Positions 16,165-20,904 of a DNA stretch of 20,904 nt are shown here, one piece after another. Source of the stretch: a virus; the IMG/VR virus record IMGVR_UViG_3300048115_000193, positions 1 to 20,904 of that record; one strand, written 5' to 3'. Below the pieces are notes generated by a model. The model saw only the letters and a list, made by a program, of their open reading frames with translations, made no database searches and was not told the origin of the DNA. How positions within the stretch are numbered: position 1 is the first letter of the stretch; each line of letters begins with the position of its first letter. A program made the position numbers and the translations under genes.

Positions 16165-17790
16165 TTATATGTTCAGTAAACCGCCAATACCTTCAGGGTC
16201 AGCTTGTTTAGCTTGAGCTATATCTTTAATAGCTCCTGACACTTGTGGTGCAGCTTGCATTTGTTGCATTTGTTGTTGTTGCTCAGCTTGCTCAGATTTC
16301 ATAGCTTCTAACTCCTCAGATGACTTAACAACTGCAGGGTCTATGTTACGATACTTAGCGTAGCTTTCAAAAAGTTTTTGCTCATTCAATGCTTGCATAA
16401 CCTCAGGCTGTACTTGTGCTAACGGTGCGATGTCTTTCATAAACGCACTTATATCAGCTAACCTAGTAGCAAACTGTGATTGTGCACTTGGACTAGAGTA
16501 AGAAATCTCAAGAGATGCACCATCTAGTGATGACGGCTTCTCAGGTAATTGATCTTGTCTAGCTAACAACTCAAATGTTGCTTCAATAGCAGGGCTTAAA
16601 TACTCGGACTCCATTCTGTTCAGTAGCGGTGCTAACTGATTTAACATCTGTCCACGTGTGTCTTGTATCTCTAGTACAGACTGTCTTTCTTTCTTCTCTT
16701 GTCTAATAATCTGATCAACAAAGAAAGCACGATTTACTGACTCACGATACATGCGAATCATCTCCATTACATACTGTGGCTGATTGCCAGCCATAATAGG
16801 TGATGGCTTCTCACTGCCTGGCTCATGGAACATAATCTGTCTAGAGCCATACTTCATCGGAAGCATAATACTATCTTCTTCAGCAGTAAGTGTAGGGAAA
16901 TTCAAATACTCAGCAGAAGTCAACGCTTCTTTCACCATCTTGTTAAGTGCACGTATCTGTGACAAACAAGAGAATGCTGGTCCACGTCCATAAACTTCAT
17001 CAGCAAGTTTAGACCAACGTGGTACTAAAAATGTAAAATAACTTGAGCCGCTTTCTAGAATGGGCTCAGGCATTTTAGGGCACCAGTATGTCACTGTATA
17101 CTTACGGCCCTTTCCTATACGGCTACCTTTTTTAGCCGCTTTATCCGTGTTCGGATAAATGGAATAAATTAACTCGTACTTACTATGAACAGAATCATTC
17201 GGATTAAAACCACGCTTGTCTTCTATTCCAGGGAAAGCCTGCATTAGTTGACGTGCTGTTTTATAACAACGATAGTGAACTGTATCTACTGTTCCATACT
17301 GATCTGTGTCAAAAAACACATCAGATAAAGGACGAGATCTAAAATTAATAACACCATCCACTTCAGAAATCTGAACTGGCGATGTGCCGTACGCACCAAT
17401 ATCTAGAAAACATTCGTGCGATGCAGAATAGAATTGAGACTGTGGTAGAGAAAACTCATGAAAAAGCCTGTCTTCACAGCCCTGTAGGAATGTCAACTCT
17501 TCTGGAGTTAACGACCCTTGAGGTCTGTTCTGCACTCTAAGATAAAACCATCTATCAGATTTAGGAATTAAATTAGATGCAAGTCCGTTTGCAAACATCT
17601 GATTACACCACACAGCTGTATCATCGTACAACTCTTTAGACCCATCGTCTTGTTTAGTTGTATGACCGTGATCAAACTTATTTGAATTAGGACGCACATA
17701 CTTTTGCGAATCCTTAAACATGCTGTCAAGATTAGATCTTAACAGCTTAAGTTCTTCATAACGTTGAGCTAGTGCAGTTAAACCACTCAT
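16165..17790 (-). CDS. Portal protein (T7-type head-tail connector)
   Basis: At 541 residues this matches T7 gp8 (536 aa). Characteristic parts: N-terminal helix with RYEELKLLRSN, then DSQKYVRPNSNKF (about 27-39), LYDDTAVWCNQMFANGL, SNLIPKSDRWFYL (72-84), and the conserved VPRWSKLADEVYGRGP (about 256-271), followed by the long helical LNKMVKEAL. The C-terminus is Gln- and Met-rich (AEQQQQMQQMQ) and likely a flexible barrel extension. Twelve copies form the ring through which terminase packages DNA and onto which the tail adaptor docks. Its ATG overlaps the stop of the polyproline gene (ATGA). The call is firm. Confidence 0.92.
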   Translation of the reverse strand: MSGLTALAQRYEELKLLRSNLDSMFKDSQKYVRPNSNKFDHGHTTKQDDGSKELYDDTAVWCNQMFANGLASNLIPKSDRWFYLRVQNRPQGSLTPEELTFLQGCEDRLFHEFSLPQSQFYSASHECFLDIGAYGTSPVQISEVDGVINFRSRPLSDVFFDTDQYGTVDTVHYRCYKTARQLMQAFPGIEDKRGFNPNDSVHSKYELIYSIYPNTDKAAKKGSRIGKGRKYTVTYWCPKMPEPILESGSSYFTFLVPRWSKLADEVYGRGPAFSCLSQIRALNKMVKEALTSAEYLNFPTLTAEEDSIMLPMKYGSRQIMFHEPGSEKPSPIMAGNQPQYVMEMIRMYRESVNRAFFVDQIIRQEKKERQSVLEIQDTRGQMLNQLAPLLNRMESEYLSPAIEATFELLARQDQLPEKPSSLDGASLEISYSSPSAQSQFATRLADISAFMKDIAPLAQVQPEVMQALNEQKLFESYAKYRNIDPAVVKSSEELEAMKSEQAEQQQQMQQMQAAPQVSGAIKDIAQAKQADPEGIGGLLNI

Positions 17791-18017
17791 TTATATAAAC
17801 CAGAGCCAGAGCCTAGCTTGCTTGCAGTCTTCTGGACAGCGCTTCGTCTAGACCCAGGTGCTCCAAACATACGTCCAAAAATTTGTGAAAACGATACCGC
17901 TCTACTTGGAGCTTTTGCACGAGCAATTCCTCTACGTGCTGTAGGAGCAGGAGGAGGAGGTGGCGCTGCAGGAGGCGGTGGTGGCGGTGGAGGCGGCGGC
18001 AATTTAGGTGTTTTCAT
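17787..18017 (-). CDS. Polyproline-tract basic protein, function unknown
   Basis: The protein has 76 residues, starting MKTPKL and then ten consecutive prolines, two alanines and five more prolines, followed by a basic segment (TARRGIARAKAPSRAV) and a Gly- and Ser-rich end. Ten prolines in a row would stall ribosomes without elongation factor P, so its output may depend on that host factor. It overlaps the upstream gene by 14 bases and its stop overlaps the portal ATG (ATGA), so ribosomes that finish here may restart on the portal. The overlap pattern and the lack of stops in GC-rich triplet repeat DNA argue for a real gene. It may be a minor head protein or serve to set portal translation; both are guesses. 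Confidence 0.65.
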   Translation of the reverse strand: MKTPKLPPPPPPPPPPAAPPPPPAPTARRGIARAKAPSRAVSFSQIFGRMFGAPGSRRSAVQKTASKLGSGSGLYK

Positions 18018-18387
18018 AATATCTAGATATTCTTACTAAGTTATCCCATTTGTACATTTTGGGCTTATCCATATTGTGATATCGACAAAAGCTGACTCTG
18101 TCAAGTCGAAACGGAGCAAGTTCTAAAAACATGCGTATTGTTTTTTCAGATTGTCTGTGTGAAGCATATCCTACATCCCAATACTTTCCTTCCTCATCTT
18201 CTAACACTTCACCGAATAATATATAGTCTTTACTCATGAACACATACTTATCTGCATTCTCAGTGTTTATATACTCATCCACTAAAGTCCAAAAGTTTAA
18301 GCCTCTTGTATTGTACAAGCACACAGCCTCTTCAACTAAAGTAAGCCTGTGATACTCACCAACTAATTCCTGGGACTTCGTACTCAT
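18004..18387 (-). CDS. Protein between terminase and portal, possible T7 gp13-like or acetyltransferase-fold protein
   Basis: I chose ATG 18387-18385 (127 residues, MSTKSQELVGEYHRL); the longer frame begins with a TTG at 18408. The protein has an alpha-beta pattern with FMSKDYILFGEVLED, YWDVGYASHRQSEKTIRMFLELAPF and RVSFCRYHNMDKPKMYKWDNLVRI. A final R-V-x-x-x-R-x-x-x-x-x-x-Y-x-W/T-x-x-L-x-R-like ending is, from memory, common in T7 gp13-like and GNAT-fold small proteins encoded near terminase or portal in podoviruses. No acetyl-CoA binding signature (R/Q-x-x-G-x-G/A) is visible, so enzymatic activity is doubtful. It overlaps the terminase gene by 32 bases and the polyproline gene by 14. Confidence 0.6.
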   Translation of the reverse strand: MSTKSQELVGEYHRLTLVEEAVCLYNTRGLNFWTLVDEYINTENADKYVFMSKDYILFGEVLEDEEGKYWDVGYASHRQSEKTIRMFLELAPFRLDRVSFCRYHNMDKPKMYKWDNLVRISRYYENT

Positions 18388-19669
18388 ACTTCGGTGCCTT
18401 CTTATCAAGTTTCGGTTGCTTCAATGCGACCGCTAATGTTCTAAATGCATCAGCTCCATGAGAGTTCGCATCATGGACCGGTGTCTTTCTAAAGACGCCG
18501 CGCGATGTATCAAATTCTTTATGGTAACCTTTGAGTGCTTCAAGGCCTTGGTAGCATTCATTCTTGCTAATCCAACACTTAGGTAGTAATGCACGGACCG
18601 CTTCAATGCCGTCAACGACTGGTATCTTTCGTACTGTTGTAAACTTAAGTCCCATACTCCGTGCTATCTCTAACCTACTCTTACCTGTTCCAAGCTCTCG
18701 CACTTTAATATCATGCGGTGCGTAATGCTTACCATAAACAACATCTTTCTGTACTGCCCACCTCTGTAGCTCACGAGCATAGTGTGGTAACCCCTCTCCA
18801 CTGTTCTCATAGTAATTAACTACACGTATCTCATTATTAAAAAGCTGTACAAACCATATAGTCGTAGCGTCATCCATACCCAAGTCCCACGCAGTGTGCA
18901 CTGGCAGGTTAGGCTCTACCTGTATAGTATCTACGATACGCTTTTCTCTGTAAAGTTTATTTATCTGTTCTCCGTAGTACGCTCCTTCTACTGGTACTTT
19001 AAATGAACACATGTACTCCGATTGGAATCGTGCCTCATTGTTTAACTCTTCTCTAGCTTTACGAAGATCATCTGGTGATATAGCCTTAGTATCTTTAACA
19101 GTCAGATGACTACTGTACCATTTACCATCACTCTGAGCTTTTAAGAGAACCTTGTAGAAATGGTTCTCGCCGCGCGGCGTTCCGTTGAATAACGCCCACC
19201 CACCATTCTCGGCTAGGATGGGGTTAATCAACTGCCACGCACTCGGATCTGATATACTATACTCTGAAAATACACAGCCTACAGGATTCGCACCCACCAT
19301 CTTATCAGGATCATCCGACCCCATCAACTGTATGATGCTGCCGTTCTTAAGATGGATACGCATCTCCTGCTCACTCTTTTTCTCTACTAGCTCCTTTGGG
19401 AAGTAGTTAATAAATTTCTTACCCTCACCAGTCATACCATTCCAAACAATACGACGCGCTTGGTTGGCGTACGGTAACACATACCAATACGTACCCACTC
19501 GCTGCATCGCTTTGATTGCCATGATATTTACACAGGTCAAATCCTTGCCGGCACGTCTATGCCAAGCAACAACAGCACGCAAACCGCGACTGTCCTGTGT
19601 CATGTACTTCAGTAGAGGAAGCTGATATTCTCTCGGCTCCCATCCCTGCGCTGGTATCTGTATGTTCAT
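18356..19669 (-). CDS. terL: Terminase large subunit (packaging ATPase and nuclease)
   Basis: The 437-residue protein carries the parts of a viral packaging motor in order. An adenine-binding-like Q is in EPREYQLPLL (near residue 16); Walker A is WHRRAGKD (36-43); Walker B is VFSEYS with E136 as the likely catalytic carboxylate; the coupling motif is FNGTPRG (161-167). The nuclease domain starts at AWDLGMDD (260-267, D262) and ends with HDANSHGADAFR (399-410, D400 and D407). It drives DNA into the head through the portal and cuts the concatemer. The C-terminal tail after the nuclease is short. The start overlaps the stop of the preceding acidic gene (ATGA) and is preceded by a purine-rich GAAGAAGAAGA tract. 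The firm motif set makes this a certain call. Confidence 0.96.
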   Translation of the reverse strand: MNIQIPAQGWEPREYQLPLLKYMTQDSRGLRAVVAWHRRAGKDLTCVNIMAIKAMQRVGTYWYVLPYANQARRIVWNGMTGEGKKFINYFPKELVEKKSEQEMRIHLKNGSIIQLMGSDDPDKMVGANPVGCVFSEYSISDPSAWQLINPILAENGGWALFNGTPRGENHFYKVLLKAQSDGKWYSSHLTVKDTKAISPDDLRKAREELNNEARFQSEYMCSFKVPVEGAYYGEQINKLYREKRIVDTIQVEPNLPVHTAWDLGMDDATTIWFVQLFNNEIRVVNYYENSGEGLPHYARELQRWAVQKDVVYGKHYAPHDIKVRELGTGKSRLEIARSMGLKFTTVRKIPVVDGIEAVRALLPKCWISKNECYQGLEALKGYHKEFDTSRGVFRKTPVHDANSHGADAFRTLAVALKQPKLDKKAPKYEYEVPGISW

Positions 19670-19902
19670 TCTTCTTCTTCGTCGACCTCAGCATCCTCCC
19701 AGATTATATCTAGTTGAGCGCCTTTGCTCTCCATATCCTTGTGGGCTTCTACTAAAAGCATCCGTCCTACTCGGTGGTTAGCATAGTCATAAAATAAATC
19801 GCCGTCATCGTCAACTACAATAAACATGTAATTTGTAAAGTGCTCTCCGAGCTGCGCCCTTACATTGTCAAAGACTGGGTCGTGATCTTCACTAATCGCC
19901 AT
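19666..19902 (-). CDS. Acidic 78-aa protein between the two terminase genes
   Basis: The protein has 78 residues. Its centre, HFTNYMFIVVDDDGDLFYDYANHRVGRMLLVEA, is a compact alpha-beta region and its end is strongly acidic (WEDAEVDEEEE). I recall similar short proteins lodged near terminase genes in marine podoviruses, without known function. It overlaps the small terminase gene by 11 bases and the large terminase start by four (ATGA), so it is coupled to both and may work with packaging. The acidic C-terminus is encoded by GAA codons that also make a purine tract just before the large terminase ATG. Confidence 0.75.
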   Translation of the reverse strand: MAISEDHDPVFDNVRAQLGEHFTNYMFIVVDDDGDLFYDYANHRVGRMLLVEAHKDMESKGAQLDIIWEDAEVDEEEE

Positions 19903-20422
19903 GTTTATCTTGATCGCTTAAAAATTCTTCGTAATCATCTTCGGTAACATTAACTATGTCGTCCTTTATAACCTTACTGTAGTCAACTGTCAAGATCTTC
20001 ATCTCACCTTGTACGGTCGCTTGGACGTCAACACTCTTTAGCTTCGGCTGGGTAAAGCTCGCCAGCTCCTTCCAAATCGCAATCTTGTCAGCTTTCTTTA
20101 TATCAGGGTCCTCCGTAAACTGTAGGAGCTCTTCAATTGGATTGACCCCACGCTCTGCGAATAACGCAAGTAGTGCCTTCCTTTGTTCCGCAGGCGTAGG
20201 GGCTTTGGACATAGTATCCAAAAATTGTTTCTTTATATCCAACTCCTCTTCTACGGTTGCCAGCTCCTTCTGGGCTTGCTTCATATCAACCTCGGCTTTC
20301 ATCTTCTTACGATGACACCGTGATCGCTTAGCTGCTTGCTGCTTAATCACCTGTTTGGGCTTACCTGCCTCATAGGTTCTTCCGTCTGGTTTCTTATCTG
20401 GCACTATGTATCTTATGAACAT
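19892..20422 (-). CDS. terS: Terminase small subunit
   Basis: This protein directly precedes the terminase genes and has the usual layout of a small subunit: a basic N-terminal part (KPKQVIKQQAAKRSRCHRKKMKAE), a long coiled helix (QKELATVEEELDIKK), a helical oligomerization-like region GVNPIEELLQFTEDPDIKKADKIAIWKELASFTQPKLKSV, and an acidic tail. The segment NPIEELLQ followed by KELASFTQPKLKSV is typical of small terminases in marine podoviruses, from memory. It would bind the packaging site on the DNA and recruit the large subunit. I chose ATG 20422-20420 (176 residues). The longer frame starts with TTG at 20440, which is better read as the -35 box of a promoter. GTG at 20404 or ATG 20302 are alternatives if that promoter is the true one. 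No good Shine-Dalgarno decides the start. Confidence 0.8.
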   Translation of the reverse strand: MFIRYIVPDKKPDGRTYEAGKPKQVIKQQAAKRSRCHRKKMKAEVDMKQAQKELATVEEELDIKKQFLDTMSKAPTPAEQRKALLALFAERGVNPIEELLQFTEDPDIKKADKIAIWKELASFTQPKLKSVDVQATVQGEMKILTVDYSKVIKDDIVNVTEDDYEEFLSDQDKHGD

Positions 20423-20440
20423 ATATTCATTAAATGTCAA
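20412..20440 (-). promoter_or_regulatory. Sigma70-like promoter at the head of the packaging operon
   Basis: The minus strand has a perfect TTGACA (20440-20435), a 17-base spacer and TAAGAT (20417-20412; four of six to TATAAT). This is close to consensus. The -35 box lies five bases from the first TTCACAC repeat of the array at 20446-20695, so a protein bound there could touch polymerase. Its start site would be near 20405, inside the first codons as drawn for the small terminase, so translation may begin further downstream than its ATG. Confidence 0.55.
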
Positions 20441-20445
20441 GAACC

Positions 20446-20695
20446 GTTCACACTATTCACACCTGGCTCACAGTTTTTACAGGGTAGTGTGAACTATCTA
20501 ATATATAGTAATATCAAGTACTTACGTAATTGTTCACACAATTCACAGTTTATTAGGGTCTATGCAAAGAGATTTACTAATAGGGTAAAAAAAGTGTGAA
20601 TTGTGTGAACAAAGTCATAAGTCGTTGATAAAGGTACCACTTAATAATTCACACCTAGCTAAAAAAAGTGTGAGCTGAGTGTGAATAGTGTGAAC
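20446..20695. repeat. Symmetric array of twelve TTCACAC-type repeats (candidate origin, operator or packaging site)
   Basis: I count twelve copies of TTCACAC or its reverse complement, some with one or two changes. Forward-strand copies start near 20447, 20456, 20467 (CTCACAG), 20533, 20542 (TTCACAG) and 20648. Reverse copies start near 20487, 20594, 20603, 20668, 20679 and 20688. They lie as an inverted arrangement centred at about 20570.5. Bases 20446-20478 match the reverse complement of 20663-20695 at 29 of 33 positions, and 20532-20548 match that of 20594-20610 at 16 of 17. Neighbouring copies are 9 or 11 bases apart. Runs of T or A flank several copies. The stretch 20495-20531 is only about 19% GC. 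The copies resemble DnaA boxes (TTATNCACA): five of twelve differ from it at one position. No gene is visible here. Confidence 0.8.
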
Positions 20696-20904
20696 AGAAT
20701 AGCCATTGTACTGAACCTTTGTGCACTAGTTAGCCTGAATTTTGAAAATTGGATGCCCAGGTAGGGACCCCTTTGTCCGCCGGATCGCAGTTTCCCCCAT
20801 TGGGGGGTGCACTGCTCCTAGTCACGAGGGTCCAAGCCCCCTCCCCATGTAAATCAACCGCACATGCACCTACAGTCTCCACAACCTTCGGTTATGAGAG
20901 CCTG
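20696..20904. other. Gene-free right-end region with GC-rich nested inverted repeats
   Basis: From 20751 to 20904 my hand count gives 92 G or C in 154 bases (60%; 65% in the first 100), far above the AT-rich DNA to the left. No gene is convincing. Inverted repeats are nested: GGACCC (20765-20770) pairs with GGGTCC (20828-20833), and inside this GGA plus GCAGT (20782-20791) pairs with ACTGC plus TCC (20811-20818), capped by CCCCC-ATT-GGGGG (20794-20806). It could be a genome-end or packaging feature, a structured RNA, or foreign DNA. The last bases (AACCTTCGGTT) form a small hairpin too close to the edge to interpret. Confidence 0.55.

Follow-up and report, generated by a model that had tools for sequence, protein, structure and literature searches.

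A mirror-symmetric array of twelve repeat units with fixed geometry and a changing sequence code upstream of the terminase genes in a group of uncultured phages

In the phage DNA analyzed here, twelve short repeat units form a mirror-symmetric array just upstream of the packaging genes. This DNA, hereafter the window, is an IMG/VR record of 20,904 bp in which the packaging and structural genes are read on the minus strand. Related phages keep the array in the same place with nearly the same geometry, and the sequence of the units is rewritten as a set from lineage to lineage. The units themselves, their fixed geometry, conserved bend-type elements, concerted change, and a position at a divergent junction beside the terS promoter make it very probable that the array is a multi-site protein-binding platform. 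Service of this platform as a replication origin falls just short of what we would call probable, and an origin that overlaps late-gene control is favored over both a pure late-gene switch and a packaging site. We hold a little more tentatively the broader view that a frozen architecture of twelve units, two bend points, and mirror symmetry has had its code rewritten repeatedly in concert by a protein of a kind not yet recognized in these genomes.

The initial annotation had described twelve TTCACAC heptamers laid out in near mirror symmetry, and both the count and the symmetry were reproduced. Within 250 bp we found nine exact copies (20447-20694) and three near copies with one or two mismatches each (20467-20473, 20542-20548, and 20668-20674). 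TTCACAC occurs 11 times in the whole window versus 3.5 expected, a number that 0 of 100 shuffles reached, and the densest 250 bp contains 9 copies versus at most 3 in 1,000 simulated sequences matched in length and dinucleotide composition. The outer arms (20446-20497 and 20644-20695) are 79% complementary across 52 nt and the inner arms (20512-20554 and 20588-20630) 81% complementary across 43 nt; the whole array is an imperfect palindrome that aligns with its own reverse complement at 70% (E = 2e-23). The array comprises four head-to-tail pairs, two third units, and two inverted singles, with each unit spanning roughly 9 bp (Table 1). GC content is 26% at 20475-20549, and the A+T-rich stretch inside the array at 20498-20510, TATAAT-like in several relatives, is a candidate strand-opening or -10 element. 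Absent from the initial annotation was the presence of one IHF-consensus element in each half of the array (20512-20524 on the plus strand and 20618-20630 on the minus strand).

Table 1. Features of the array and adjoining genes in the window
Feature	Position	Strand	Basis
Symmetric array, twelve units, centre near 20571	20446..20695	.	Repeat counts, symmetry, simulation, relatives
terS-side outer triple: TTCACAC 20447-20453, TTCACAC 20456-20462, CTCACAG 20467-20473	20447..20473	+	Sequence; equal offsets in relatives
terS-side single inverted TTCACAC	20487..20493	-	Repeat count; relatives
A+T-only-rich stretch, minus strand TACTATATATTAG	20498..20510	.	Sequence; A+T-rich at equivalent place in relatives
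Element E2, TATCAAGTACTTA, exact match to IHF consensus WATCAANNNNTTR	20512..20524	+	Sequence; present in part of relatives
Inner pair: TTCACAC 20533-20539, TTCACAG 20542-20548	20533..20548	+	Sequence; relatives
Inner pair, other half: TTCACAC 20594-20600, 20603-20609	20594..20609	-	Repeat count; relatives
Element E1, TATCAACGACTTA, exact IHF consensus match	20618..20630	-	Nearly invariant among relatives
Far-side single inverted TTCACAC	20648..20654	+	Repeat count; relatives
Far-side outer triple: CTCACAC 20668-20674, TTCACAC 20679-20685, TTCACAC 20688-20694	20668..20694	-	Sequence; relatives
TTGACA, candidate -35 of terS promoter	20435..20440	-	Sequence and relatives; promoter activity predicted
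terS-like gene, called by position, 182-aa ORF	19892..20440	-	Aligned in relatives
Terminase large subunit gene (terL)	18356..19669	-	PHROG match E 2e-29; tblastn to phage terminases

Relatives were gathered as about 100 further contigs through a TerL search, a terS search, and two DNA-pattern searches. All are metagenome contigs from uncultured phages, and their TerL identity to the window runs from 98% down to about 62%, the lowest values belonging to classes added by pattern. In nearly all TerL relatives whose contigs include the necessary sequence, the array lies about 0.7 to 1.1 kb upstream of terL and just before terS, so the association with terS persists in related phages. About 50 distinct arrays keep the twelve unit positions to within a few bases, supporting the earlier suggestion of a conserved design. 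Relative to E1, the 3' ends of their units fall at -57, -48, -37, -24 (inverted), +28, +37, +80 to +86 (inverted), +89 to +94 (inverted), +141 to +146, +155 to +160 (inverted), +166 to +171 (inverted), and +175 to +182 (inverted). A few units per array are missing or shifted, and AGT and CTACCA arrays show this most. Of six long genomes scanned, five contain one cluster, and the sixth (G002) has one array listed as two adjacent clusters. A blastn search with the array against 50,697 phage and 72,556 plasmid records returned no match, in keeping with the initial annotation, which did not recognize the arrangement from any named phage.

The unit sequences fall into about 14 classes, split by clade and assigned by inspection with hand-set class patterns; the unit positions were not hand-set. 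These classes are TTCACAC, RTCACAC [(A/G)TCACAC], GCTCACAC, GGTCACAC, TGTGACAC, GGTACAC, AGTACA, CAGACAC, TAGACAC, GTAGACAC, GTTGACAC, and TAGTCAC, with CTACCA and GATCACT in more distant phages. Most classes retain CAC at the 3' end and, behind some units, a T-tract, and the 5' three to five bases vary. On the TerL tree with 15 class labels, at least 16 class changes are needed, and the ATC and TTC classes require three changes each, forced by well-supported branches. One such change separates the window from its sister L003 (support 100/98; TerL 98% identical), in which the first T of TTCACAC is replaced by A or G in 11 of 12 units. Elsewhere in the same array, 3 of 72 bases changed in the TCACAC core and 22 of 155 spacer bases (14%) differ; the window and L005, members of one class at a similar distance, differ at the first unit base in 1 of 12 units. 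The comparison shows a concerted point change within one backbone rather than a block swap.

A fixed layout combined with concerted unit change implies a sequence-specific binding protein and rules out DnaA boxes. The initial annotation had read the TNCACA within the units as the core of DnaA boxes, a reading that is not supported because the equivalent positions in relatives carry GGTACAC, CAGACAC, TAGACAC, or CTACCA, which lack TNCACA. An oriC-type origin would call for conserved TTATNCACA boxes, and the units instead change to non-DnaA sequences. The economical reading of these comparisons is a sequence-specific protein whose specificity shifts and which is probably assisted by bending of the DNA.

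The bending component would depend on the conserved TATCAAnnnnTTA element of each half. Both E1 and E2 match the IHF consensus exactly in the window; E1 is kept in nearly all relatives and E2 in part of them. By their consensus match, E1 and E2 are candidate IHF sites. A phage-encoded HU or IHF gene was not found in the array phages, so any IHF involved would be that of the host. Another conserved protein could own the element, a doubt raised by other phage lineages that have it within palindromes or in tandem copies spaced about 21 bp. The E-element string did not occur in the literature searched, and a scan of bacterial genomes gave three matches, none in array context, that we took as chance. 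The nearest complete named record, MW202510 (TerL 48%), lacks the array and has only a TATCAACAGCTTA element.

On the minus strand of the window, the genes run terS-like, f2, terL, a 130-aa gene, a proline-rich ORF, portal, scaffold-like, capsid, tail, and large internal-protein-like genes. The terS-like protein has no PHROG, Pfam, or NCBIfam family match; because its listed TTG start overlaps TTGACA, the GTG at 20404 is the likelier start. Long relatives have genomes of about 41 kb with circular maps (end overlap in G002 and self-overlap in G006), and in these the array forms the only point at which early and late genes diverge, with late genes leading away on one side and, on the other, early genes followed by PolA, an archaeo-eukaryotic-type primase, and UvrD- and SNF2-like helicases. 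The initial annotation had also placed the array beside the promoter of the terminase operon, consistent with a TTGACA that most classes have 4 to 17 bp outside the terS-side triple and that we predict to act as a promoter element. Skew, which had been named as a gauge of the origin idea, is ambiguous: in eight genomes the cumulative AT skew turns no more than about 1 kb from the array, in parallel with gene orientation, which turns there too, and GC skew is inconsistent.

Several observations on neighboring genes accompany this map. The acidic, 78-aa f2 (19666-19902, minus strand) lies between terS and terL, and its homologues (41 to 78% identity) occur in phages with otherwise unrelated terS, terL, and portal. 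The 130-aa gene between terL and portal (18004-18408, minus strand) diverges unusually fast, at 60% identity to L003 versus 98% for terL, and appears to be swapped among close relatives. Just before portal is a 76-aa ORF with long proline runs (17787-18017, minus strand), and proline-rich ORFs are likewise placed in relatives. Beyond the array, the non-coding segment at 20750-20850 is GC-rich (about 64% GC; CCCCCATTGGGGG...GGTAGGGACCCC) and without an Rfam match, and relatives have similar sequence.

We propose that the array is an IHF-assisted initiator array, a two-sided iteron-type origin overlapping late-gene control, a model that narrowly misses being probable. A phage-encoded sequence-specific protein would occupy the twelve roughly 9-bp units, and host IHF or a similar protein would bind the two TATCAAnnnnTTA bend points. 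The bends would fold each half and bring the units together about the dyad, and the assembled array would start replication. Such an origin would overlap, and probably regulate, the late promoter. The changing code may keep the protein of each lineage specific to its own DNA in the face of co-infecting relatives, satellites, and decoys. Supporting this model are the fixed geometry, the number of classes and class changes, the near invariance of E1, and the concerted change between the window and L003, together with the single array per genome at the junction of late genes with early and replication genes, the internal A+T-rich stretch, and the AT skew turn. Standing against it are the absence of a covarying initiator among the genes examined and of an adjoining initiator gene, the ambiguous skew, the identification of IHF sites by consensus, and the mirror symmetry, which is unusual for iteron origins since these mostly have direct repeats.

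Lambdoid O/ori and pSC101-type origins with IHF are iteron-type origins whose repeats covary with the DNA-binding domain of the initiator. The array resembles iteron origins in its clustered short repeats, with twelve candidate initiator sites at fixed positions, its A+T-rich stretch, and a repeat sequence that differs between close relatives. A precedent is the Vibrio cholerae PLE, in which iterons covary with the RepA DNA-binding domain (PMC8263062). Unlike PLE-type origins, the array has twelve mirrored units, two bend elements at fixed positions, and about 14 codes, and no covarying initiator was found for it.

We searched for the binding protein by comparing genes with motif class, a comparison that for early genes rests on relatives, since the window's own early genes lie outside its record. 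Long relatives yielded no gene for an initiator that covaries with the repeats, and no recognized initiator gene adjoins the array. The f2 protein has one class-separating column only. For the 130-aa gene that follows terL, bulk comparison agrees with class, but the ATC member L004 groups with the TTC window and the ATC member L003 with the TTC member L006. The first early gene, of about 300 aa, is only 29% identical between G002 and G016, though their arrays look identical, and the phosphoesterase, by eye in the alignment, is 97% identical between AGT and ATC phages. The primase C-terminal region was compared with motif class and set aside. The UvrD-like helicase shows the largest gap between same-class and different-class comparisons (89 versus 58%), but no class-specific segment was seen. 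A 40- to 46-aa ORF is tightly tied to class but was not found in AGT and TCTACC records, and a sigma region-4 protein is not universal. AlphaFold models were poor (pTM 0.27 for the early gene and 0.31 for TerS), and Foldseek with the TerS model returned nothing significant. The binder would still most likely be phage encoded.

A rather unlikely alternative, though the strongest of them, is that the array is a late-gene switch with no replication role, in which a phage regulator, bound to the units with IHF-type bending, turns the terS promoter on or off and perhaps also an outward early promoter. Such a switch would suit the conserved TTGACA, the array's place at the sole divergent early/late junction, and the -10-like A+T elements inside both halves in several relatives. 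However, early genes begin well over 1 kb away, so two adjacent promoters do not explain the symmetry, and twelve units with two bends are many for one promoter. Moreover, no covarying regulator was found, and a promoter scan of the region gave no more matches than shuffles did.

We regard as improbable that the array is a cos or pac site read by terminase. In lambda-family cosB, TerS sites flank an IHF site, and lambda and phage 21 differ in specificity (PMC4669245). Like cosB, the array has repeated sites in both orientations around an IHF-type element just upstream of terS, with codes that differ between relatives, and lineages with quite different terS also have the E element upstream of terS-f2-terL. 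Unlike lambda cosB, it has two mirrored halves and twelve units rather than three, and no cohesive-end site was located; packaging is also directional, whereas the array is symmetric. Neither PLE origins nor lambda-family cosB has a frozen twelve-unit dyad with about 14 codes. The position before terS agrees with the pac-site suggestion of the initial annotation, but the proteins weaken it: the terS-like protein stays nearly the same as the sites change. When TTC and ATC members of the window's own clade are compared, among them sisters that differ in almost all repeat units, the only TerS replacements are I to L/V and E to D, and TerL shows no class-specific difference. The basic region of TerS is conserved across classes. 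TerS is therefore unlikely to read the code.

Lambda attP and P1 parS typically combine multiple sites with IHF, and the P1 parS and pSM19035 omega heptad arrays consist of heptamer-like units, direct and inverted, with a bending protein in P1. The array shares such units and IHF-type elements, and the early ThiF gene and a weak PRTRC_A-like gene recall plasmid PRTRC cassettes, which include a ParB-like protein. An attachment site with integrase arm-type sites, or a centromere with ParB or ribbon-helix-helix partition sites, is nonetheless very improbable and already largely refuted: tyrosine integrase (PF00589) was absent from 16 records, with a positive control, ParB_N (PF02195), PRTRC ParB (TIGR03734), and ribbon-helix-helix (PF01402) proteins were absent from 14 records, and there is no sign of a plasmid or prophage state. 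We give equally little credence to units read by a host protein, with classes reflecting different hosts; the failure to find a phage binder and the resemblance of E1 to a site for a conserved host protein would suit it, but roughly 14 codes among closely related phages, including a full change at 98% TerL identity, would demand host factors that change equally fast. The least credible alternative is a folded RNA or cruciform whose stems co-change to stay paired without a sequence-specific protein: the imperfect palindrome and joint unit change would fit, but the array has no Rfam match, and complementarity of mirrored spacers is 0.445 within an array versus 0.442 between classes, so fold-back pairing is not the selected feature and protein recognition is indicated instead.

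If the broader view of a frozen architecture with a rewritten code is true, these phages would have naturally evolved orthogonal pairs of protein and array that isolate each lineage's replication or late program from co-infecting relatives. At a single multi-site regulatory element, the arrays document at least 16 natural changes of specificity, some recent enough to separate phages with 98% TerL identity, while spacing has stayed almost constant. They allow a test of how a protein and a dozen sites switch specificity with function retained, and the pressure behind the change, whether competition, satellites, or origin-targeting nucleases, is itself testable.

Among other early genes, those of G003 (L106:7628-10972) and, at the equivalent place, of other array phages include one for a protein like ThiF/E1 (E = 5e-15 to Pfam ThiF, with PRTRC_ThiF below cut-off), one for a weakly matching PRTRC_A/JAB-like protein, and one for a possibly ubiquitin-like protein of 74 aa. 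In L003 (1904-2152, minus strand), an 82-aa protein consists of sigma-70 region 4 alone (Pfam E = 2e-16), with homologues in L095, L158, L191, and L194.

The E1 string also occurs outside the array. In other lineages (L152, L156, L161, L163, L166, L178, L195, and L198), TATCAACGACTTA forms tandem sets of two to four copies at a spacing of about 21 bp. Several of these contigs have the set upstream of a different terS gene, after which come f2 and terL. In L153, L160, L167, and L168, TATCAACGACTTA lies within palindromes. Exact TGTTCCACGTGGAACA occurs close to the tandem copies (L156:12042, L161:4471, L163:5974, L166:1171, L195:239, and L198:5797) and also in L186:14584; it looks like bacterial chromosomal parS, pointing to a possible use of host ParB. 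TATCAACGACTTA flanked by a dyad of any motif provides a search handle for the control regions of a large group of uncultured phages.
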